Translations under genes and position numbers: made by a program | DNA from: Romeriopsis navalis LEGE 11480 | Lineage (GTDB): Bacteria; Cyanobacteriota; Cyanobacteriia; Leptolyngbyales; Leptolyngbyaceae | Assembly: GCF_015207035.1 (NCBI RefSeq) | Contig: NZ_JADEXQ010000044.1 | Span: 1 to 48,361 of the forward strand | Direction of reading: 5' to 3' | Length of the DNA stretch: 48,361 bases | The notes under the pieces: generated by a model | Database searches by the model: none | Seen by the model: only the letters and a program-made list of their open reading frames with translations | What the model was told of the DNA's origin: nothing | Shown: positions 19,418-35,389 of the stretch, piece after piece | Position numbering within the stretch: the stretch's first letter is position 1 | Layout of the letters: each line of letters starts with the position of its first letter

Positions 19418-20287
19418 CTAAACCTGCGCTAATTCTGGCTGCTGCATCTGCGCAAAATTATCCGCCGTCGCACCACTGCCATAAACTTCGCAGGAATTAT
19501 TCGGACTTTCGTACAGCTTCACCTTATGCAACTCACCACCCAGCTCCCGCACCCGCGGCTCTAGCACCTGGCAAATATAAAAGGCGATATTCTCCGCCGT
19601 CGGCACCACCTTCTCGAAATAAGACACATCCTTATTCAAGAACGTATGGTCCATCGGCTCGACGATATGCTCGTCGATCGCTTCCTGGAGCTTACCAAGA
19701 TCAATCAACATACCCGTCCGGGGGTCAATCTGCCCCTTCACCATCACATCCAAGTGATAGTTATGGCCATGGCCATTGGGCCGCGCACATTTCCCATAAA
19801 TTTCGCTGTTCTCCTCAAAACTCAAATCCGTCCGCGCCAAACGATGGGCCGCACTAAAGTGAGTACTAAGAGTCAAAAATGCTTCCATGTCCTTTCCTTG
19901 GTAATCCGCCCAGAGTTGGGGGTGTTCATACAACCGAATATTGACGATCGGTAAGTGCGGCGATAATTTTTGCCAAATTACCCGTGCCATATTCTCGGTT
20001 GTAGGCAGGGTTTGCCGGAATTCTTCCCAAGCGTCGTTCAAAAATGAATAATCAAGCTGACTCGTTACTTCATGCTTAATCGTATGCTTCACATCAGAAA
20101 GGTTGAGCACCATTCCGTATTCATCCAACTCACCCAACATCGAGACGTGCAGGGTGTAGTTGTGCCCATGACCAGGATATTTGGCACAAGCTCCGAACTG
20201 TTCCGCATTTTCGGCCTCACTCAACTCCGGCAGCCAATATCGATGGCTAGACGAAAACTGAGCACGGCGATCAATGACACACTTCAT
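19418..20287 (-). CDS. 6-carboxytetrahydropterin synthase-like protein, two tandem domains
   Basis: Two fused QueD/PTPS domains of about 140 aa each. Domain 1 has SSSHRYW, catalytic-type Cys in GACAKYPGHGHNY (zinc His pair), and LDYSFLN, where the family's catalytic His is Tyr. Domain 2 has SAAHRLA, GKCARPNGHGHNY, intact MDHTFLN and KLYESPNNS with the substrate Glu. QueD converts dihydroneopterin triphosphate to 6-carboxytetrahydropterin for queuosine and other deazapurines. The second domain looks competent; the first may be structural or altered. Start at ATG 20287 (MKCVIDRRAQF) puts the first strand at the N-terminus. Confidence 0.88.
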   Translation of the reverse strand: MKCVIDRRAQFSSSHRYWLPELSEAENAEQFGACAKYPGHGHNYTLHVSMLGELDEYGMVLNLSDVKHTIKHEVTSQLDYSFLNDAWEEFRQTLPTTENMARVIWQKLSPHLPIVNIRLYEHPQLWADYQGKDMEAFLTLSTHFSAAHRLARTDLSFEENSEIYGKCARPNGHGHNYHLDVMVKGQIDPRTGMLIDLGKLQEAIDEHIVEPMDHTFLNKDVSYFEKVVPTAENIAFYICQVLEPRVRELGGELHKVKLYESPNNSCEVYGSGATADNFAQMQQPELAQV

Positions 20288-20794
20288 AGACAATGAGTAA
20301 TGAGAGATAAGGTGTGAAGTTTCGTGAACTTGCACACCCCTTCCAGAATAGCGAATTCCTGCCGCAATCTCCGGTAAATATTCGGCGGATCATCCACCTC
20401 AGCAAGTACGGATACCTCCATCAAAGTCCTAAAACCGATCGCATAAACCCCAACAAAACGCTATCGGTAGTCATAACTCCACAGTCAAATGACAGCATTA
20501 GCGTCTATCTGCGCAAGCTAAAACTAATAACTACGCACTAAAAAATTAAACTTTTCGCATCCACCTTGCTCGATCAAAGTCCGGTCTGCTAGCCTGATAG
20601 AAGGATAAATCAGTGCTGACGAACTATTAGCTCGTGTAAGGGCGATCGTCAATGCCGCCTCAGTCATAAAGGCATCAACTGAAAATCATCCGAAAGATTT
20701 TTAAATAAGACTGGACAAGTTCAAATGTTTTAGGGTACAAATGTCCTAGTGGTAGAACTACCAGCATTTCACCCAAACGATATGGCCTAAATCA
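20288..20794. other. Divergent intergenic region between QueD gene and lexA
   Basis: 507 bases without a supported gene. The right end carries a LexA-box-like sequence and a short palindrome near lexA. The rest shows no recognised structure. Confidence 0.4.
20734..20763. promoter_or_regulatory. LexA-box-like site plus TGGTAG-AA-CTACCA palindrome upstream of lexA
   Basis: GGTACAAATGTCCT at 20734-20747 fits the published cyanobacterial LexA consensus RGTACNNNDGTWCB at all but one position. Three bases on, TGGTAG (20750-20755) and CTACCA (20758-20763) form a perfect inverted repeat. The pair lies 32-61 bases upstream of lexA, suggesting autoregulation. Inferred from pattern only. Confidence 0.45.
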
Positions 20795-24800: not shown

Positions 24801-27596
24801 ATGAATGCAGTCGAAATCGAAGAAGCCATTTCTCAGCTTGCCGAAGCGCCCTTTGATGCAGCTGCATTCCCCTTTGCTTTCCTCGAAGCATTTGGCAATA
24901 AGGCGACGACGCTCAAGAAGCTGAAGAGCAACAGTTCAAACAAGTCTGACTTGGGTGGGGTGCTTCAACGCAACAATATTCATCTGAAGGTTTGCGAGGA
25001 AGGCGAAGTGACGGCGACGCTGACGGCGCTGCGGGAGAGTCCAGCGACGGCGAAGCAGAAGGCAAAGTTTATTCTGGCGACGGATGGTGTGAGTCTGGAG
25101 GCAGAGAATCTGGCGGATGAGGCCGAGCCGCCGTTGGTTTGTGAATACGCCAAGTTTGATGACCATTTTGGATTTTTCCTGCCATTGGCGGGCATTACGA
25201 CAGTCAAGCAGATTCGAGAGAATGCCTTTGATATTAAAGCGACGGGGCGGTTAAATCGGCTGTATGTGGAGCTGTTGCAGAAGAATCCGGATTGGGATAC
25301 GGATGAGCGCCGGGAGGCAATGAATCATTTTATGGCGCGGCTGATCTTTTGCTTTTTTGCAGAGGATACGAATATTTTTCACAGTGAGAATCTGTTTACG
25401 GCAACGATTGAGCAGATGTCTGCGCGGGATTCTTCGAATACCCATGCAGTGCTGGCAGAGCTATTTCGGGCGATGCGGACGCCACCGCAGGAGCGGGCGG
25501 CGGCGGGAATCAAGAATTGGGCCAACCAGTTTCCCTATGCCAATGGGGGACTATTTTCGGGCAGTTTAGAGGTGCCGCGTTTTAGTAAGATTGCCCGGTC
25601 CTATCTGCTGCATGTGGGGAATTTGGATTGGACGAAGATCAACCCGGATATTTTTGGGTCGATGATTCAGGCGGTGGCGGATGATGAGGAGCGCGGTGCG
25701 TTGGGGATGCACTATACGAGTGTGCCGAATATTCTCAAGGTTTTGAATCCGCTGTTTTTGGATGACTTGCGGGAGCAACTGGAGGCAGCGGGGGAGAATG
25801 GGCGGAAGCTGCTGAATTTGCGGAAGCGGATGGCGCGGATAAGGGTGTTTGATCCGGCTTGTGGGTCGGGGAATTTTTTGGTGATTGCCTATAAGGAGAT
25901 GCGGGCGATCGAGGCGGTGATTAATGAGCGTCGGGGGGAGGCGGATCGGCGATCTGAGATTCCGTTGACGAATTTTCGAGGAATTGAGATTCGTCATTTT
26001 TCCTGTGAGGTGGCGCGGTTGGCGTTGATTATTGCGGAGTATCAGTGTGATGTGGTTTATCGGGGGCAGCGGTTGGCGTTGGCGGAGTTTTTGCCACTGA
26101 AGGATGAGAATTGGATTACTTGTGGGAATGCGTTGCAGTTGGATTGGTTGAGCTTGTGGGATGCGGATCAGCAAGGTGTCAGGGTTCGACAGGAACGTCT
26201 GGATTTATATGGCGAGACGAGGGAGCAAGCCGAAGTCGATTTCGAGAATGAAGCTGGTGAAACTTTTCTGTGTGGAAATCCACCTTATTTGGGCTCAACT
26301 TGGCAATCCAAAGAACAAAAAGCTGATTTAAAGCATATTTTTGAGGGGCGAACCAAGAAATGGAAATCGCTGGATTATGTGTCGGGATGGTTCATGAAGG
26401 CGGTAGATTATGGAACACAGACAAGATCTATTACGGCTTTTGTATCTACAAATTCAATCTGTCAGGGGCAACAGGTGTCAATTCTCTGGCCGCTAATTTT
26501 TAATACAGAGCATGAGATTTCTTTTGCGCATACGTCATTTAAGTGGGCAAATTTAGCAAGTCATAATGCCGGTGTCACAGTCGTAATCGTCGGACTTGCT
26601 AGCAACGCTGAAAAAGCTCGAAACTTGTTTTCTATTGAAGATAAAGGCGAGACAGTAGTAAGGGAAGCTGAAAATATCAACGCTTATTTAGTCGCTGGCT
26701 CTAACGTTGAAATCTCCAAGCATATGGAGCCTCTATCCAATACAGCAGAAATGCTTCGCGGAAATATGCCTTATGACGGTGGTAATTTACTTCTCTCAGC
26801 TGATGAGGTTATAGATTTAGACCTTACGCAAGATCAATATGAAAAATTGATTCGACGAATTTATGGCTCAGCCGAGTTTATCCGAGGATTATCTCGTTAT
26901 TGCCTTTGGATCGAAGATGATCTTTTGGATGAAGCACTAACGATCGCACCAGTTCGGCAACGAATCGAAGGAGTGCGAAAAATGCGGTTGGCAAGCCGTG
27001 ACAAGAGTGCAAATGCAATGGCTGCTTATCCGCACCGTATGCGTGAGATGAACCTTGCGAAGCAGCAAACCATTTCCATGCCGCGCATTTCATCTGAAAG
27101 ACGCGAGTATCTTCCAGTTGGTTTAGTCGATTCAAAAACCACCATAACTGACCTTTGCTTCGGTCTTTACGATGCTTCTCTATGGAACATGGCGCTAATA
27201 GCCTCCCGCATACACCTCGTCTGGATCGCTACCGTCTGCGGCAAACTTGAAACGCGCATTCGCTACTCCAACACCCTCGGCTGGAACACCTTTCCTGTCC
27301 CTACCCTCACCCAACAAAACAAAACTGACCTCACCCGCTGCGCCGAAGACATCCTCCTCGCCCGCGAACAATACTTCCCCGCCACCATCGCCGATATGTA
27401 CGACCCCAAACGCATGGACAGCGAATTCCCCCTCGTCCGCCAAGCCCACGATCTCAACGACGAAACCCTAGAGCGCATCTACATCGGACGCCGCTTCAAA
27501 AACGACACCGAACGCCTCGAAAAACTCTTCGATCTCTACACTAAAATGACCGCCCAGCAACCACCCGCGAAAAAGTCGGCCCCCCGAAAAAGTTAG
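24801..27596 (+). CDS. MmeI-like class I DNA adenine methyltransferase, no evident nuclease motif
   Basis: 931 aa. SAM motif I is FDPACGSGNF (D351-F359) and the catalytic motif IV is GNPPY (N493-Y496), the NPPY of N6-adenine methylases. Order is N-terminal domain, helical spacer (to 340), methylase core (345-600), variable target-recognition region (about 560-800) and conserved C-terminal segment (SEFPLVRQAHDLNDETLERIYIGRRF). This is the MmeI/type IIL architecture, but I find no D...ExK motif in the first 200 residues, so cleavage may come from a partner. Base composition is mosaic: G-rich to about 26170, AT-rich to 27190, C-rich after. First gene of a five-gene same-strand array. Confidence 0.9.
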   Translation: MNAVEIEEAISQLAEAPFDAAAFPFAFLEAFGNKATTLKKLKSNSSNKSDLGGVLQRNNIHLKVCEEGEVTATLTALRESPATAKQKAKFILATDGVSLEAENLADEAEPPLVCEYAKFDDHFGFFLPLAGITTVKQIRENAFDIKATGRLNRLYVELLQKNPDWDTDERREAMNHFMARLIFCFFAEDTNIFHSENLFTATIEQMSARDSSNTHAVLAELFRAMRTPPQERAAAGIKNWANQFPYANGGLFSGSLEVPRFSKIARSYLLHVGNLDWTKINPDIFGSMIQAVADDEERGALGMHYTSVPNILKVLNPLFLDDLREQLEAAGENGRKLLNLRKRMARIRVFDPACGSGNFLVIAYKEMRAIEAVINERRGEADRRSEIPLTNFRGIEIRHFSCEVARLALIIAEYQCDVVYRGQRLALAEFLPLKDENWITCGNALQLDWLSLWDADQQGVRVRQERLDLYGETREQAEVDFENEAGETFLCGNPPYLGSTWQSKEQKADLKHIFEGRTKKWKSLDYVSGWFMKAVDYGTQTRSITAFVSTNSICQGQQVSILWPLIFNTEHEISFAHTSFKWANLASHNAGVTVVIVGLASNAEKARNLFSIEDKGETVVREAENINAYLVAGSNVEISKHMEPLSNTAEMLRGNMPYDGGNLLLSADEVIDLDLTQDQYEKLIRRIYGSAEFIRGLSRYCLWIEDDLLDEALTIAPVRQRIEGVRKMRLASRDKSANAMAAYPHRMREMNLAKQQTISMPRISSERREYLPVGLVDSKTTITDLCFGLYDASLWNMALIASRIHLVWIATVCGKLETRIRYSNTLGWNTFPVPTLTQQNKTDLTRCAEDILLAREQYFPATIADMYDPKRMDSEFPLVRQAHDLNDETLERIYIGRRFKNDTERLEKLFDLYTKMTAQQPPAKKSAPRKS

Positions 27597-27636
27597 CCAT
27601 AATAATAACGACGAGCCCATTTACCCCCGAAAAACC

Positions 27637-27876
27637 ATGACAGCCACCGAAAAGCTCTACCAACTGCTCCAAACCCTCCCAGAAAACCAAATCACCGAAG
27701 TCCTCAACTTCGCCGAATTTCTCCACCAAAAACAGCCCACCACTCCAACGACCAAGACGATCCCCCCCGGTACTCTTACTGGACTCCGAGGCATCGCCAA
27801 ACATCCCGGTTCTACTCCAAATGAAGCCGAACTAAAAGCCGAATATACCGACTATCTAACCCAGAAATACCAATAA
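27637..27876 (+). CDS. DUF2281-type antitoxin
   Basis: 79 aa. The N-terminal LYQLLQTLPENQITEVLNFAEFLHQKQ matches the DUF2281 antitoxin pattern (LPE...V.DF.EFL), followed by a Pro/Thr linker and a C-terminal ELKAEYTDYL segment likely to bind the toxin. It lies 40 bases after the methylase stop and 8 bases before the PIN gene. Expected role: neutralise the PIN RNase and autoregulate the pair. Confidence 0.85.
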   Translation: MTATEKLYQLLQTLPENQITEVLNFAEFLHQKQPTTPTTKTIPPGTLTGLRGIAKHPGSTPNEAELKAEYTDYLTQKYQ

Positions 27877-27884
27877 GCCTGCCC

Positions 27885-28292
27885 GTGAAAATTCTCATCG
27901 ATACCAACATCGTCCTCGATCTCATCCTGGAAAGAGACCCCTTTGTTGAAGACGCGATCGCCATCTTCGAGCAAATTGAACAGAGCAACTTGGAAGGCCA
28001 TATCGCCGCCACCACTATCACCAATATTTTCTACCTCATCCGTAAAATCGAAGGTCGTGAAGTCGCCCTTGCGGCCATTCACCGGCTCCTGATTGGTCTC
28101 CAATTTTGTGCTGTCGATCGCCAAACCATCGAAACTGCACTCAGCCTTGGCCTGAAAGACTTTGAAGACAGCATTCAACTAGCCTGTGCCACCCTCAATC
28201 AACTCGATGCGATCGTCACCCGCGATCGGAAAGACTTCGTCGGTAGCAACCTCCCTATTTATTCCCCCACAGAACTCTTAAACCAGCTCTAG
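27885..28292 (+). CDS. PIN-domain toxin (VapC-like RNase)
   Basis: 135 aa starting at GTG. The acidic residues of the PIN active site are visible: IDTNIVLDLI (D6 and D11 region), LKDFEDSIQLACA and IVTRDRKDF. PIN toxins are Mg2+-dependent RNases that cut tRNA or rRNA. The antitoxin precedes it by 8 bases, and the helicase gene follows after 25 bases, so the pair is embedded in the operon rather than beside it. Confidence 0.88.
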   Translation: MKILIDTNIVLDLILERDPFVEDAIAIFEQIEQSNLEGHIAATTITNIFYLIRKIEGREVALAAIHRLLIGLQFCAVDRQTIETALSLGLKDFEDSIQLACATLNQLDAIVTRDRKDFVGSNLPIYSPTELLNQL

Positions 28293-28317
28293 ACAAAGCA
28301 CATCTAAAGAAATTTCT

Positions 28318-30387
28318 ATGAGTCAGCCTATTTCAGTACCCGCCGTATCCGTCACCTACGCCCAAGCTGGCACCTCCACAAGCTCTAATGCCCTCGGTAT
28401 GCGCCCCATGCAAGAGCGGGCCTACCAGCAACGCGGCGAACAATACCTCCTAATCAAATCACCCCCGGCCTCCGGCAAAAGTCGGGCACTCATGTTTATC
28501 GCCCTGGACAAGCTGGAACACCAGCAACTCAAACAAGCCATCATCGTTGTGCCAGAGAAATCGATCGGTTCCAGCTTCCAGGATGAACCGCTCAGTCAGT
28601 ATGGCTTTTGGACCGACTGGCAAGTCGAACCCCGATGGAATCTTTGCGATGCGCCAGGAAACGACGGCGGCAAAGTCGATGCAGTGAAGAAGTTCCTCGC
28701 CAGCGAGGCCAAGATACTAGTCTGTACTCACGCCACCTTCCGCTTCGCCGTGGATAAATTCGGCATCAAAGTGTTTGACGATCGCCTGATCGCCGTAGAT
28801 GAGTTCCACCACGTTTCCGCCAACCCCGACAATCGGCTCGGCGATCAGGTACGCCAACTCATGGCCCAAGGCAAAACCCATATCGTCGCCATGACTGGCT
28901 CCTACTTTCGCGGCGACGCCGAAGCCGTACTGCAGCCAGACGACGAATCAAAATTTGCCACCGTCACCTATACCTACTACGAACAACTCAACGGTTACGA
29001 GCACCTGAAGCAGCTCGACATCGGCTACTACTTCTACTCCGGCAGCTACACCGACGAAATCATGCGGGTGTTAGATCCTCGACAAAAAACCATCCTGCAC
29101 ATCCCCAACGTCAACTCCCGCGAAAGCACCAAAGACAAAATCCGTGAGGTCGAACACATCATCGACGAACTGGGAGAATGGCAAGGCACCGATCCCAAAA
29201 CAGGATTTCAACTCGTCAAAACCACCGATGGCCCAATCCTCAAAATCGCCGATCTCGTAGATGACGATCCCAGCAAGCGCGATAAAGTTGCCACCGCTCT
29301 GAAAGATCCCGCCCAAAAAAATAACCGCGATCACGTTGATATCATCATCGCCCTCGGCATGGCTAAAGAAGGCTTCGACTGGATTTGGTGCGAACACGCC
29401 TTGACGATCGGCTACCGCTCCAGCCTCACCGAAATCATCCAAATCATTGGCCGCGCCACCCGCGATGCCCCCGGCAAAACCCGTGCCCGCTTCACCAACC
29501 TGATCGCCGAACCCGATGCCAGCGAAACCGCCGTTACCGAAGCAATCAACGACACGCTCAAAGCCATTGCGGCCAGTCTGCTCATGGAACAAGTCCTCGC
29601 CCCGCGCTTCGAGTTCCGCCCCAAGCACCCCGAAAATCAACCCACACCGGGCTTTGACTACGGGGAAGGGGGCTACAATGCCGCCGGAACAAATGTGGGG
29701 GTCAATCCAGAGACCGGACAAATTCAGCTCGAAATCAAAGGACTCGCCGCACCCAAAAGTCCAGAAGCTGAACGCATCTGTCGCGAAGACCTCAACGAAT
29801 TAGTCACAGCCTTCGTCCAAGACAAGCCCAGCATCGAGCGCGGCCTATTTGATGAAGAAGTCGTTCCCGAGGAACTGACCCAGGTGCGCATGGGCAAAAT
29901 TGTTCAGGAAAAGTTTCCAGATCTAGCAGCTGAAGACCAAGAAGCTGTTCGACAACATGCGATCGCTGCCCTCAACGTCGTCCAACAAGCAAAAGCGGCT
30001 GAATCGGGCGGAAACTATTCGACAGACGATTCAGGAGACGAGTCAACTCCGAACACTGCTCTCATTGACGGCGTTCGTCAATTCGCCCTATCGGTCACAG
30101 AACTCGATATCGACCTGATTGACCGCATCAACCCCTTTGGCGAAGCCTATGCTATCCTCTCAAAATCCATGAGCGAAGAGCGGCTTAAGCAGGTCGCAGC
30201 GGTCATTGCAGCGAAGCGGATCAATCTCACGATGGAAGAAGCCAGAGAATTAGCCAAACGAGCCGTACGCTTCAAGAATGAGAAAGGGAGACTGCCCTCA
30301 ATTACCGCAGCCGACCCCTGGGAAAAACGTATGGCCGAAGGAATTGCGTTCCTGCAACGCAAGGTAAAGGAGGAGAGTAATGCCTAA
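28318..30387 (+). CDS. SF2 DEAD/DEAH-box helicase-like ATPase of the island
   Basis: 689 aa. A Q-motif-like MRPMQERAY (28-36) precedes Walker A PPASGKS (49-55). The DExH box is DEFH (161-164), motif III MTGSYF, motif VI QIIGRATR (375-382). The C-terminal 250 residues contain FKNEKGRLPSITAADPWEKRM, a (F)xxExGRLP module found again in the next protein. Likely ATP-driven DNA translocase, analogous to HsdR or DISARM/BREX motors but without a fused nuclease. Stop overlaps the GIY-YIG start by 8 bases, with AAGGAGG serving the latter. Confidence 0.88.
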   Translation: MSQPISVPAVSVTYAQAGTSTSSNALGMRPMQERAYQQRGEQYLLIKSPPASGKSRALMFIALDKLEHQQLKQAIIVVPEKSIGSSFQDEPLSQYGFWTDWQVEPRWNLCDAPGNDGGKVDAVKKFLASEAKILVCTHATFRFAVDKFGIKVFDDRLIAVDEFHHVSANPDNRLGDQVRQLMAQGKTHIVAMTGSYFRGDAEAVLQPDDESKFATVTYTYYEQLNGYEHLKQLDIGYYFYSGSYTDEIMRVLDPRQKTILHIPNVNSRESTKDKIREVEHIIDELGEWQGTDPKTGFQLVKTTDGPILKIADLVDDDPSKRDKVATALKDPAQKNNRDHVDIIIALGMAKEGFDWIWCEHALTIGYRSSLTEIIQIIGRATRDAPGKTRARFTNLIAEPDASETAVTEAINDTLKAIAASLLMEQVLAPRFEFRPKHPENQPTPGFDYGEGGYNAAGTNVGVNPETGQIQLEIKGLAAPKSPEAERICREDLNELVTAFVQDKPSIERGLFDEEVVPEELTQVRMGKIVQEKFPDLAAEDQEAVRQHAIAALNVVQQAKAAESGGNYSTDDSGDESTPNTALIDGVRQFALSVTELDIDLIDRINPFGEAYAILSKSMSEERLKQVAAVIAAKRINLTMEEARELAKRAVRFKNEKGRLPSITAADPWEKRMAEGIAFLQRKVKEESNA

Positions 30388-31591
30388 GCAAACCAAGCCT
30401 AAGCAAAAGCAGACGACAGAAGACGACTTGGCGCTGCTTGATGAATTGGGCTTAGACACAGTGCCCGAAAAACCTAAAAAGCTTTCTGCCAAAGAAGAAC
30501 GGATCATCGCAGGCTTCGAAGAAATTGAGCACTTTGTTGAAGAACAGGGCAGATTGCCCCAGCATGGCGAACATCGAGACATCTTTGAGCGGCTCTATGC
30601 AGTGAGGCTAGATCGCCTACGGGAATCAAAGGAATGTCGCAAAGTATTACAGTCAATTGATTCAAGAGGACTATTAGAGGCTGACAACGATGGGCACCCA
30701 CCCCTAGAAGAAGACATTACAGACGAGGACTTGCTCTCAACGCTTGGCCTTGATGCCACTACTGGCAATGACATCACTCAACTCAAACATGTGCGATCGC
30801 GCGCCGAAATTAAGTCTGCTGAGGAGATTGCACAACGCAATCCCTGCGAAGACTTCGAGCAATTCAAACCCGTTTTCGAGAATGTTCAAAACGACCTAGA
30901 TACAGGTCTACGAAAAACGCTCAAGTATCAAGATAATGCAGCGGTCAATCAAGGCGATATGTTCATCCTTGATGGTCACAAAGTGATAGTGGCTGAAATG
31001 GATGCGCCTTTCATCGCGGATTATGGCCGCCAAGATCGCCGACTGAGGGTGGTATATGACAACGCCACTGAAAGCGATTTGTTGATGCGATCGCTACAAC
31101 GCTCCTTAAACAAAGACAGGGCTAGCCGCCGCATCACCACCCCAGACTTTGGCCCCCTGTTTTCGCAAGTCGAAGCAGAAGATGACTATCCCACTGGCTA
31201 TATTTATGTGCTGCGGAGCCAATCAGATGACCCCTTCATTGCAGAACATCGGTCTGTAGTCCACAAAATCGGTGTGACTAGCGGTGATGTAAAACAGCGA
31301 ATTGCCAACGCCAAAAAAGATCCAACCTATCTACTCGCAGACGTTGAGATCGTCACAACCTTCAAGCTCGCCAATATCAACGCCAAAAAACTCGAAGCTC
31401 TCCTTCAGAAATTTTTTAGCAGTGCCCGATTGGATGTGGAATTACAGGATCGCTTTGGTACAGCAGTGAAACCTCGAGAATGGTTTCTCGTTCCATTAGA
31501 GGTGATTGAACAGGCAATCGAAAAAATTCGCGAGGGAACTATTGGCCAATTCCGATACGATCCAAATACAGCTAGCCTCAAGCAATTGTGA
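30380..31591 (+). CDS. GIY-YIG nuclease (MUG113/T5orf172-like) of the island
   Basis: 403 aa. The C-terminal 130 residues are the nuclease: G273-Y-I-Y-V-L (GIY), K296-I-G (YIG position), R307, metal-site E339 in KKLEALLQKFF, and the MUG113-type REWFLVPLE. The N-terminal 100 residues hold IEHFVEEQGRLPQHGE...FERLYAVRLDRL, sharing the ExGRLP module with the helicase C-terminus. The middle (150-270) is unassigned. Translationally coupled to the helicase. Expected role: DNA cleavage by the island's defence machinery. Ends 35 bases before the convergent solute-binding-protein gene. Confidence 0.88.
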   Translation: MPKQTKPKQKQTTEDDLALLDELGLDTVPEKPKKLSAKEERIIAGFEEIEHFVEEQGRLPQHGEHRDIFERLYAVRLDRLRESKECRKVLQSIDSRGLLEADNDGHPPLEEDITDEDLLSTLGLDATTGNDITQLKHVRSRAEIKSAEEIAQRNPCEDFEQFKPVFENVQNDLDTGLRKTLKYQDNAAVNQGDMFILDGHKVIVAEMDAPFIADYGRQDRRLRVVYDNATESDLLMRSLQRSLNKDRASRRITTPDFGPLFSQVEAEDDYPTGYIYVLRSQSDDPFIAEHRSVVHKIGVTSGDVKQRIANAKKDPTYLLADVEIVTTFKLANINAKKLEALLQKFFSSARLDVELQDRFGTAVKPREWFLVPLEVIEQAIEKIREGTIGQFRYDPNTASLKQL

Positions 31592-31624: not shown

Positions 31625-31653
31625 GATCACCGATCGAGTTCATCAATATTCCA
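31625..31653. repeat. Right copy of 29-bp direct repeat bounding the island
   Basis: Identical to 24642-24670. Here it covers the last nine codons of the intact solute-binding-protein gene and two bases beyond its stop. Confidence 0.85.
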
Positions 31654-33414
31654 CAGACCCCAGGTTGGTAAGCCGCTGTATTTGAGACCTTTCACATCTT
31701 TGCGAACGGCCATCAGCGCCCGATCGTTGACTAAGTGAATAATTGGCACTTCTTCAGCCACTATCTGCTGGAATTGGCCATAGATTTCCTTGCGCTTGGC
31801 TTCGTCAAATTCTTGGGCACCGGCAATAAACAGCCGATCAATCGCTGATTCATAAGGCTTTGGTGCGTAATCTTTAACTTCCGACTGACCGGGTTGTTGC
31901 TTCAGATTAAATGCATGGGAACCACCACTGGTCATCCAGAGATTCGCCACACCGTGAGGATCAACCCCACCCCCAAAGCCGACAATGTGAATATCCCAAT
32001 CGCGCGTGGTAGTGAGCTTATCCACCAACACATTGAAATTTAGCGTTTGGAAATTCACCTTCATGCCAATTTTGTCGAGGTCTTGTTTGATCTGTGAGCC
32101 GATCGCCACGCGCACCAAATTATTGGAATTTGTAATCAGGTTGAATTCGACACGGTTGCCATCCGCATCAAAGAGCTGACCCTGATTGTCATATTTAAAC
32201 CCCGCGCCCGTGAGCAACTGCTTCGCGGTGTCAATGTTGTAGTCGTAGACTTTCAATCCCTGTTCCGGCGAGAGAAAGTAGGGACTTTGGATCGAAACGG
32301 GTGAATGCTGCACCACGCCTAAACCCCGGAAAAGATTGGTGTTGATCCGCTCTTTATCGATCGCATGGGCCACGGCCTGCCGAAATTCCTTGGTGTTAAA
32401 CCATTTAGCTTTGATCGGGTCAACAAACGGCTTACCCTCAGCATTTTTAGCCGTGCTGACATTAAAGACAAATTGCAGCACCCCCGACCAAGCACCACCG
32501 TCCAGCACATTCGCATTCAGACGTTTGGCCTCTTGCTTCAGCAAACCGTAGTATTCCGATTTCATCGGGCGAGTATCACCGAGAACATCTAAGTCACCCG
32601 ATCGAAACCGCAGTAGCTGCACATCAAGATTCTCGATTACCTGCCAGATAATTTTATCGAGCTTGGGTAGTTGGGTGCCATCCTCAGCTTTGCGCCAATA
32701 GTAGGGATTGCGACGGAAGACAACACGCTGTCCCGCCACGTAAGCATCCAGTTTGTACGGACCATTCACAATAATTTGGTCCGGCGGCGTATCGCTCCCC
32801 CAGGTGGATAGAAAGGCCAGATTCCCATTGGCATCTTTAGTTTTGAGTGACTGCTCTAGGGCATGTTTCGGCAAAATACAAACGCCATTCGGGGCAGCAG
32901 TCGCCCGCAGAAATGGCGCAAAGGGTTCTGGGAAAGTGAATTTCACGCGCCGATCATCCAGCTTCCGCAGCGAAGGATATGCCTGTTTTGCCCCAATTTT
33001 CAGATTGTCTTTGACCTCGATCGGCACCTTGGGATTGAACACCACATCTTGGTAAGTAAACACCACATCATCAGCGGTGAGTGGGTTTCCATCGGACCAT
33101 TTCAAATCGGGTCGCAGGGTAAATATCGCGGTTTTCTTATCCTTGGAAAATTGCCAGGATTCTGCTAGTGATGGCTCAATCTCGCCCGTCACACCGTTTT
33201 CCCGCGTTAACCCATCATAGGTAAACATGAAAATATTCGGGAACGACTGGTTATTGGCAAAGTTGAAGGTTTTGGGGTCGGTGGGTGTGGCGAGCACAAG
33301 TTGGGATTCGTTGTGCGCCCGAAATCGCTGGAGACTACAGGCAGATAAGGGCAGCAATAAGCATAGACAAACCAACAAGACCCTGAGGAAATTGAGCCGC
33401 CGACTGCGTTTCAT
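31627..33414 (-). CDS. ABC transporter substrate-binding lipoprotein, family 5
   Basis: 595 aa SBP_bac_5 protein (oligopeptide/dipeptide/nickel type). A lipoprotein signal (MKRSRRLNFLRVLLVCLCLL, lipobox LSAC) leads the mature protein, which starts with LATPTDPKTFNFANN and contains the family segments EPSLAESWQFSKDKKT, LKWSDGNPLTADDVVFTYQDV and FRQAVAHAIDKERIN. Start at 33414 fits the signal peptide; the upstream ATG at 33558 adds 48 basic residues. No permease or ATPase gene is nearby, so it must serve a transporter encoded elsewhere. Its 3' end is the right boundary of the island. Confidence 0.92.
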   Translation of the reverse strand: MKRSRRLNFLRVLLVCLCLLLPLSACSLQRFRAHNESQLVLATPTDPKTFNFANNQSFPNIFMFTYDGLTRENGVTGEIEPSLAESWQFSKDKKTAIFTLRPDLKWSDGNPLTADDVVFTYQDVVFNPKVPIEVKDNLKIGAKQAYPSLRKLDDRRVKFTFPEPFAPFLRATAAPNGVCILPKHALEQSLKTKDANGNLAFLSTWGSDTPPDQIIVNGPYKLDAYVAGQRVVFRRNPYYWRKAEDGTQLPKLDKIIWQVIENLDVQLLRFRSGDLDVLGDTRPMKSEYYGLLKQEAKRLNANVLDGGAWSGVLQFVFNVSTAKNAEGKPFVDPIKAKWFNTKEFRQAVAHAIDKERINTNLFRGLGVVQHSPVSIQSPYFLSPEQGLKVYDYNIDTAKQLLTGAGFKYDNQGQLFDADGNRVEFNLITNSNNLVRVAIGSQIKQDLDKIGMKVNFQTLNFNVLVDKLTTTRDWDIHIVGFGGGVDPHGVANLWMTSGGSHAFNLKQQPGQSEVKDYAPKPYESAIDRLFIAGAQEFDEAKRKEIYGQFQQIVAEEVPIIHLVNDRALMAVRKDVKGLKYSGLPTWGLWNIDELDR

Positions 33415-33515
33415 GAATGCTACTCCAAGGTTCCGGAACGATCGGCTGCAAGCCCGAGAAATGTCTGGATTCGATCGTACCGGAACAGCGGACGCTCTTT
33501 CAATCCTGCCGCTTG

Positions 33516-33545
33516 TTTTAATCTTCCGACTTTTAATCTTCCGAC
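33516..33545. repeat. Perfect 15-bp tandem duplication
   Basis: TTTTAATCTTCCGAC occurs twice without spacer (33516-33530, 33531-33545) in the gap between the two solute-binding-protein genes, upstream of the first. Confidence 0.85.
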
Positions 33546-33564
33546 TGCCCGTCGCCATAAAACA

Positions 33565-33622: not shown

Positions 33623-35389
33623 CTATTCGGCAACCCGTAACTCGTGAATATTCCAAGTAATCCCACCGGATTCGGGATAGCGCACGCCTTCAACCTTATT
33701 GCGGCCCACGGCCATGATGCGCTCCACTACGAGGGGAATCCAAGGCAACTGCTCCTGGCCAATTTGCTGGACCTTGCCGTAGATTTCACGGCGTTTGGCA
33801 TCGTCGAGTTCCGTTGCCCCTTGAGTATAAAGCCGCCCCATTTCCTTTTCCCAGTCGGAAACCTGCTGACCTTCTAGCATCTTGGTGCCGCCTTCGGCTC
33901 GCTGGTTAAACCCGTGGGATGCCCCGTCCGGCTGCCAGACATGGGATAAGTAATGCGGCTCAGGGCCACTGCCAAAGGCCAGTAGATAAGCCTGCCAATC
34001 GTAGGTATTGCCAATTTTCTCAATCAGGGTATTGAAGTTAATCGGGTTGAGATTGACTTTGATCCCGATGTCCGCCAAGTCCTGCTTGATCTGCGCAATC
34101 AGGGAGACGCGCAACGTATTCGAGGAGTTGGTCATCAGCGTGAACTCGACCGGATTACCCGCGCTATCTTCTAGCTGGCTACCGTTGTACTTGAAGCCCG
34201 CATCTGTGAGGAGTTTTTTCGCTTTCTCCGGGTCATAGTCGTATACCTTCAATCCCTGTTCCGGCGATAGCGAGTAGGGACTCCGGGTACTAATAAACGA
34301 ATTAATCAACACCCCCAAACCCCGGTAGGAGTTGGTGTTCATTTTGTTGCGATCGATCGCATAGGCCACGGCCTGACGGAATGCGGTGTTGTTAAACCAC
34401 TTCGATTTAATCGGATCAACCACAGGCTTACCATCCCGTTTGCCTTGGTTGAGGTTGAACGACATAAACGTCGTAACAGGACGGGCTTCCCCCATATAGA
34501 CCTTGAATTTGCCCCGCTTTTCTTCATTCTTCAGTAGCGGAAAATCTTCGGGACGCAGGGGCTCAATGATGTCGGATTCACCCGATCGAAACTTAATCAA
34601 TGTCGTATCGCGGTTATCCACCAACTTCCAAACTAACCGCTCGACATAGGGCTGTTTTTTGCCTTCCGCATCCTGACGCCAATAGTTGGGATTGCGGCGG
34701 AAGGTGACGCGCTGACCGCTAACGTACTCTTCGAGGGTGTACATCCCGTTGGTGATGACACTCTTGGGATCATCATTGGTGCTCCAAGTGCTAAGAAATA
34801 GCGGTTTACCATCACGATCTTTTTCGGTAATCGTCTTGGCCAATGCGTGCTGAGGCATAATGCCCAGGCTCATGGTGCGCAAGAAAGGCGCAAAGGGTTC
34901 CGGTGTGGTGAATTTGACCTGCTTTGGCCCAACTTTCTCCACCTTCGGCAGTTTGCGTTCTTTGCCAATGCGGAGAATATCCTGAATATCCGTCTGGATT
35001 TCAGGGTTGAGGTAAATGGAGTTGTAGGTGAAGACCACATCATCGACGGTCAGCGGCTCACCGTCAGACCATTTGAGATTATCTTTGAGCGTGAAGGTGA
35101 GGCTCTTTTTATCATCAGAGACTTCCCAGGACTCGGCGATCGCCGGTTCGATTTCGCTGGTTAGACCATCTTCCGTAATCAGTCCTTCGTAGGTATAGCC
35201 AAAAACATTCGGAGAGGAGTTATTCAGCGCATAGTTGAAAGTGCCGGGATCGCCGAGTTGACTTTCAATAATTTGGGAAACCTGCGCCGTTGGGTTGCGC
35301 AACTGATTGGGACTACAAGCCGACAGCCCCAAGACCAAAAGTAACCCTGCACAGAAAATGGCTAAATAGCGCCGCACCAAAACTACCAT
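33623..35389 (-). CDS. ABC transporter substrate-binding lipoprotein, family 5 (paralogue)
   Basis: 588 aa, clearly paralogous to the neighbouring gene (shared LKWSDGEPLTVDDVVFTYNS, EPFAPFLR, FRQAVAYAIDRNKMNTN, SPYSLSPEQGLKVYDYD). N-terminal lipoprotein signal with lipobox LSAC. Begins MVVLVRRYLAIFCAGLLLVL. The ligand is probably a peptide or metal chelate; the two copies may differ in specificity. A third copy survives only as a fragment at 24.64-24.75 kb. Confidence 0.92.
   Translation of the reverse strand: MVVLVRRYLAIFCAGLLLVLGLSACSPNQLRNPTAQVSQIIESQLGDPGTFNYALNNSSPNVFGYTYEGLITEDGLTSEIEPAIAESWEVSDDKKSLTFTLKDNLKWSDGEPLTVDDVVFTYNSIYLNPEIQTDIQDILRIGKERKLPKVEKVGPKQVKFTTPEPFAPFLRTMSLGIMPQHALAKTITEKDRDGKPLFLSTWSTNDDPKSVITNGMYTLEEYVSGQRVTFRRNPNYWRQDAEGKKQPYVERLVWKLVDNRDTTLIKFRSGESDIIEPLRPEDFPLLKNEEKRGKFKVYMGEARPVTTFMSFNLNQGKRDGKPVVDPIKSKWFNNTAFRQAVAYAIDRNKMNTNSYRGLGVLINSFISTRSPYSLSPEQGLKVYDYDPEKAKKLLTDAGFKYNGSQLEDSAGNPVEFTLMTNSSNTLRVSLIAQIKQDLADIGIKVNLNPINFNTLIEKIGNTYDWQAYLLAFGSGPEPHYLSHVWQPDGASHGFNQRAEGGTKMLEGQQVSDWEKEMGRLYTQGATELDDAKRREIYGKVQQIGQEQLPWIPLVVERIMAVGRNKVEGVRYPESGGITWNIHELRVAE

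Follow-up and report, generated by a model that had tools for sequence, protein, structure and literature searches.

Does a five-gene locus of the cyanobacterium Romeriopsis navalis LEGE 11480, which encodes a DNA adenine methylase, a toxin-antitoxin pair, an SF2 motor and a GIY-YIG nuclease, represent an undescribed system, or a variant of one already known? The genes occupy positions 24801-31591 of contig NZ_JADEXQ010000044.1, the whole of which (48,361 nucleotides, nt) is the window analysed here. An earlier note, made from the sequence alone, did not recognise the set of genes as any named, characterised system. That claim falls because the methylase, motor and nuclease genes correspond to the published dnmA(yeeA)-yeeB-yeeC trio of Bacillus subtilis, named in papers that appeared in 2020-2023 (PMC7261158, PMC9973331), and, the PIN-domain toxin pair excepted, the set of genes matches this already described system exactly. 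The locus is a real, well-formed cyanobacterial member of a widespread known operon family, and carries VapBC-like cargo.

The B. subtilis enzyme DnmA methylates GACG(m6A)G (m6A, N6-methyladenine) and is without the MmeI nuclease motif; downstream of its gene come genes for a helicase and for a protein with a T5orf172 domain (PMC7261158, PMC9973331). Both papers trace the recognition of homologues of this kind, and the idea of a Type I-like system, to the 2009 survey of the MmeI family by Morgan et al.; for the trio itself, restriction of a 'Type I-like' sort has been proposed (PMC7261158). Conserved synteny and a link to defence islands, the latter attributed to Makarova et al. 2011, also feature in these accounts (PMC7261158, PMC9973331).

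Organization of the locus

The five open reading frames (ORFs) are all on the + strand, separated in order by 40, 8, 25 and -8 nt, and their coordinates and products are as the earlier note described them:

24801-27596, + strand: methylase gene, encoding a DnmA/YeeA-type MmeI-family N6-adenine DNA methyltransferase with its own target-recognition domain (931 amino acids, aa; Pfam MmeI_N, MmeI_hel, MmeI_Mtase, MmeI_TRD and MmeI_C)
27597-28317, + strand: slot between the methylase and motor genes (721 nt), occupied by the DUF2281/PIN pair
27637-27876, + strand: cargo gene, DUF2281/VapB-like antitoxin (79 aa; PF10047, E 2.3e-16; sub-threshold match to NF050009 VapB)
27885-28292, + strand: cargo gene, PIN_3 (VapC-like) toxin (135 aa, GTG start; PF13470, E 6.6e-23)
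28318-30387, + strand: motor gene, encoding a YeeB-type SF2 DNA translocase/helicase (689 aa; PF00270/PF04851 (DEAD/ResIII), E 9e-9 and 3e-6)
30380-30387, + strand: 8-nt overlap that couples the motor and nuclease genes (from the ORF coordinates)
30380-31591, + strand: YeeC-type T5orf172/GIY-YIG gene (403 aa; N-terminal helical region, SH3/Tudor-like barrel by a weak match, C-terminal T5orf172 GIY-YIG domain)

The MmeI-family methylase, which has the full methyltransferase and target-recognition domains and no PD-ExK motif, is thus followed on the same strand by an SF2 gene and then by a T5orf172/GIY-YIG gene, the start of the last overlapping the helicase stop as had been noted. PF20466 matches in the B. 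subtilis control genome, and four Bacillota loci (L109, L125, L145 and L146) carry the trio; the window proteins are probable homologues of B. subtilis YeeA, YeeB and YeeC. Three catalytic residues named from the sequence, N493 in the NPPY motif of the methylase, K54 in Walker A of the motor and E339 of the nuclease, were correctly placed. Scans for promoters and terminators yielded site counts below those of shuffled sequence.

The methylase has exchanged its nuclease motif for another conserved sequence

The methylase matches MmeI_Mtase with an E-value of 2e-115 and can be aligned over its full length with its solved relative, MmeI (5hr4), through the methylase domain, the helical spacer, the target-recognition domain and the C-terminal domain. 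The catalytic motifs DPACGSG (at 351) and NPPY (at 493) are intact. By contrast, the PD...ExK nuclease site of MmeI (D70, E80, K82; PMC4833311) is replaced by SNKSDLGGVLQRNNIHLKV (24928-24993, residues about 43-64), confirming the view that the enzyme has no nuclease motif. Sequence of this SNxSDxxGVLQxxxIH type stands in place of D-x9-ExK in the window methylase and in all 57 of the full-length trio methylases, from various phyla, aligned with it. As the same replacement is kept throughout, the N-terminal nuclease domain looks to have been re-used rather than to have decayed randomly, and the replaced region is perhaps a docking site.

The PADLOC model PDLC03598, which describes an all-in-one type IIG restriction enzyme-methyltransferase, matches this nuclease-less protein end to end (E 1e-282). 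This single-gene label was the only one that PADLOC assigned to the methylase; no system was called for the motor or the nuclease. Automatic annotation of defence genes may therefore assign the dnmA family wrongly and overlook the two genes that accompany it.

Mapping of the MmeI specificity residues to the window methylase, following the rules of PMC4833311 and using MmeI numbering, gives 5'-NAGG(m6A)C-3' as the predicted target, where N at position 1 denotes a position without a prediction. A at position 2 is predicted from the change of K645 to M, G at position 3 from those of E751 to R and N773 to D, G at position 4 from A774 to L with R810 retained, and C at position 6 from the retention of E806/R808. 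Position 2 is the least certain of these calls because residue 642 differs too.

The motor-nuclease pair alternates with the fused nuclease in cyanobacterial genomes

A profile search detected PF20466 in 83 of 292 cyanobacterial genomes, and 60 of the loci were examined for the N-terminal motif and for neighbouring genes, the motif being assessable in 58 methylases. The D-x9/10-ExK motif is retained in 48 of the 58, none of which has the motor/nuclease pair; in the 10 without it the pair is adjacent in nine (Fisher p 9e-10, a value that merely describes the pattern because related sequences are not independent). The earlier proposal that modification, translocation and cleavage reside on separate chains is therefore borne out both by the domains of the proteins and by these comparative data, in which the separate chains and the fused MmeI nuclease stand in for one another.

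The tenth motif-less methylase belongs to a genome (G229) in which motor and nuclease genes are on another contig. Here the motif-less dnmA (L032, G229:C232) is followed by a PIN gene and other small toxin-antitoxin-like genes, while the motor and nuclease genes (L213, G229:C36) are about 1.2 kb apart.

A genome scan with the motor returned at least 550 relatives, the best 80 of which were kept for analysis. Further copies of the trio occur, some with the PIN pair and some lacking it: a scripted test for it was passed by 71 of 82 loci, most of the others being truncated by the contig, and the phyla represented include Cyanobacteriota, Pseudomonadota, Bacillota, Verrucomicrobiota and Chloroflexota, with motor relatives also in Planctomycetota. 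The motor is encoded in 264 plasmid records, of which 118 are conjugative, examples being a plasmid of 22.8 kb from Synechococcus elongatus PCC 11801 and one of type IncHI1B from Klebsiella pneumoniae. These numbers place the trio among the commoner split restriction-like operons. In cyanobacteria the motor was found in 17 of 386 genomes, several with fragments only, and a search of 50,697 phage records gave only fragments or distant matches.

A probable Type I-like restriction-modification core

It is probable that the core of the locus is a restriction-modification system of Type I-like character whose methylase belongs to the MmeI family, and to which the PIN pair has been added as VapBC-like cargo. 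Through its own target-recognition domain the methylase would modify a short asymmetric site, predicted to be NAGG(m6A)C, on one strand only, which would keep self DNA hemimethylated at the least. At an unmodified site the methylase would form a complex with YeeB, recruiting or licensing the motor, which would translocate along the DNA and bring YeeC to cut. The DUF2281/PIN pair may stabilise the operon or provide a second-line abortive response. The locus may have an anti-phage function.

The motor contains Walker A (ASGKS), a DEFH box (DEFHH), MTGS and IGRATRD motifs, which are largely invariant; K54, the DEFHH box (161-165) and R379/R382 are the same in all of the 30 motors compared. In the nuclease the GYIY, KIG, E339 and REWF motifs are intact, and the protein matches T5orf172 (PF10544) and MUG113 with E-values of 1.3e-15 and 5e-14, respectively. 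Sequence searches identified no solved relative of either protein. The structure model of the nuclease (predicted local distance difference test score, pLDDT, 80) contains the barrel at about 180-253, for which the fold search gave weak SH3/Tudor-like matches only (residues 167-258, best Z 5.1); a GIY-YIG entry was absent among the fold matches listed, which says little for a 403-residue multi-domain model.

Several observations weigh against active restriction by the trio. The B. subtilis operon restricted neither plasmid uptake nor any of three phages, and has been classed as a relic (PMC7261158, PMC9973331), the literature search found no biochemistry of YeeB or YeeC, and the model of the motor is poor (pLDDT 67), its fold matches being generic SF2 enzymes with low TM-scores, including HsdR of EcoR124I. 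With such confidence and such matches the model adds little to the assignment of the motor. The main rival to restriction is that the locus of R. navalis is a relic too, with an orphan methylase that acts epigenetically, beside a motor and a nuclease that have ceased to restrict. Deletion of dnmA, yeeB or yeeC in B. subtilis left transformation and phage growth unchanged, while m6A affects transcription (PMC7261158, PMC9973331), and decayed copies of the operon exist: genome G060 contains a yeeB remnant with stop codons (G060:C21, of the same family), G352 a 72-residue fragment (G352:C1), and at locus L214 (6728-10291) the dnmA frame is split into two parts about 750 nt apart. These remnants show that the operon has been gained and lost in cyanobacteria. 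The window, however, contains three intact frames in which all of the catalytic residues checked are intact, and YeeB is 74-85% identical to most of its homologues in other phyla, indicating strong ongoing selection on the motor, beyond that on the methylase alone. In addition, deletion of dnmA or yeeB in Vibrio crassostreae is reported to alter phage sensitivity (PMC9973331). The intact catalytic residues and the strong conservation of the motor thus argue against a relic, which we consider unlikely here.

A second rival, less likely still, retains defence and dispenses with the cutting of unmodified sites: as in BREX, the methylase would serve solely as a sensor or self-marker, and the system might respond, for example, to replication or to modified DNA. 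Phage genomes show no depletion of GACGAG (PMC9973331), few T5orf172 domains have been characterised, and the nuclease has a large N-terminal region and an SH3/Tudor-like barrel, all of which would suit such a route. Against this, the GIY-YIG catalytic residues (G273, Y276, K296, G298, R307, E339 and E367-W368-F369) do not vary among 39 nucleases, suggesting that cleavage is probably required, and none of the five proteins is a good match to BREX or DISARM partner models.

A slot for exchangeable cargo between methylase and motor

The toxin-antitoxin pair was described correctly in the earlier note as a DUF2281 gene followed by a PIN gene (PIN_3, 8 nt apart). The view of the five genes as the conserved unit is not upheld: the trio is the core, and the pair is exchangeable cargo. 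Among 82 loci in which both methylase and motor were placed, the slot between them is empty in 31 and filled in 51. In the empty loci the spacing of the two genes is -8 to +14 nt, mostly -4 (an apparent 481-nt overlap is an artefact of an over-long ORF call), while in the filled loci they are 258-5120 nt apart. Of 81 homologous loci, 46 show the motor and nuclease genes overlapping by exactly 8 nt, and only two have a gap of more than 100 nt between them.

The inserts, whose genes were called by a simple ORF picker so that small ORFs are uncertain, include RhuM (5), YhcG/DUF1016 nucleases (5), SLFN_AlbA_2 (4) and DinD/Bro-N (3), as well as MntA-HepT, DUF2281 and PIN proteins, RelE/HI1420, AbiEi-like/AbiEii, DarT/DarG, Fic and BrnT. 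Three more recurrent families had no Pfam match among the representatives scanned, one being PLD-like by eye only. Many inserts match the PADLOC candidate defence models PDC-S02 and PDC-S05. The pair recurs at the same place in one locus (L033), and another (L042) has a PIN/DUF2281 pair.

The same census bears on a further explanation, that the PIN toxin is the effector of a single obligate five-gene system and is freed by inhibition of the restriction complex, much as PrrC acts when EcoprrI is inhibited. There is precedent in the position of PrrC inside a type I locus (PMC12707154), the genes of the window are closely spaced on one strand, the slot of L033 contains this pair as well, and the cargo lies close against both neighbours in 26 of the 51 filled slots. 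Obligate association is nonetheless highly improbable, as the cargo-free loci attest and as the slot elsewhere holds many unrelated families; moreover, the outer edges of the window pair are spacers of 40 and 25 nt rather than overlaps.

The cargo slot is the sole part of the finding that may be new, no paper describing it having been found in a search of open-access literature. It is conceivable, if still doubtful, that a dedicated slot repeatedly swaps unrelated abortive-infection and toxin-antitoxin modules, VapBC in the present case, often with little space to the genes on either side. The dnmA-yeeBC family would then provide defence in layers, the embedded toxin being set off once the split machine failed or was inhibited.

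Two of the recurrent slot families, of about 260 aa (loci L110, L144, L148, L156 and L169) and 137 aa (L112, L130, L134, L147 and L151), have five members each; the representatives scanned gave no Pfam match, and the families are candidate new effectors. At L096 (7543-8689), from Candidatus Chloroploca, the slot contains a DarT/DarG-like pair of an ADP-ribosyltransferase and a macro-domain protein.

Genomic setting and significance

GNAT and HEAT-repeat genes lie immediately upstream of the locus and form a conserved group in several relatives that lack the island, consistent with its insertion. The downstream oligopeptide-binding genes were not found beside the GNAT-HEAT genes in relatives, and a comparison of empty sites gave no 3' boundary for the island. 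Beside the island, on the - strand of the window, adjacent genes (31627-33558 and 33623-35389) encode paralogous family-5 peptide/nickel-type solute-binding proteins. Further away, also on the - strand, a single ORF (19418-20335) apparently comprises, by eye only, two tandem 6-pyruvoyltetrahydropterin synthase/QueD-like domains.

The sole well-studied copy of the trio was judged inactive. With intact catalytic residues, a predicted site and an apparent slot, the R. navalis locus makes the questions of restriction by this family and of a toxin fail-safe directly testable.

Comparison with known systems

Like the type IIL enzyme MmeI, the system would modify one strand of an asymmetric site. The same-chain D70...E80-x-K82 motif of such enzymes is absent, and motor and nuclease are separate genes. 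With Type I (HsdRMS) systems the locus shares the combination of adenine methylation, an SF2 motor and a nuclease, together with an embedded accessory gene (PrrC in the Type I case; PMC12707154). Here, however, recognition lies inside the methylase and the nuclease is a separate GIY-YIG protein, in contrast to the PD-(D/E)XK domain fused to the Type I motor; no HsdS, and no HsdR with such a fusion, was detected among the five proteins with Pfam, NCBIfam or PADLOC.

DISARM and ARMADA likewise combine helicase genes with a related adenine methylase (DrmMI gives a partial match, and ArmB has been called YeeA-related; PMC12458937). The five genes differ in having a GIY-YIG nuclease and no YprA- or BrxHII-like helicase. 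DrmA, DrmB (DUF1998) and DrmC are absent among them, the only DISARM signal being the partial DrmMI matches to the methylase. For BREX, weak partial PglX matches fall far below NCBIfam cut-offs, and no pglZ, brxC or brxL partner is present among the five genes. VapBC-type pairs resemble the cargo in the order of a VapB-like (DUF2281) gene and a PIN-domain gene, with toxicity and neutralisation predicted; they are free-standing elsewhere, whereas this pair sits inside the slot of a restriction-like operon.

The closest counterpart is dnmA-yeeB-yeeC of B. subtilis and its homologues (M.BsuPY79I, GACGAG), in which an MmeI-type methylase devoid of a nuclease motif, an SF2 motor and a T5orf172 GIY-YIG protein are likewise encoded, with order and orientation unchanged (PMC9973331, PMC7261158). 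The R. navalis operon differs from it in the DUF2281/PIN pair between methylase and motor, and in a predicted site of NAGGAC rather than GACGAG.

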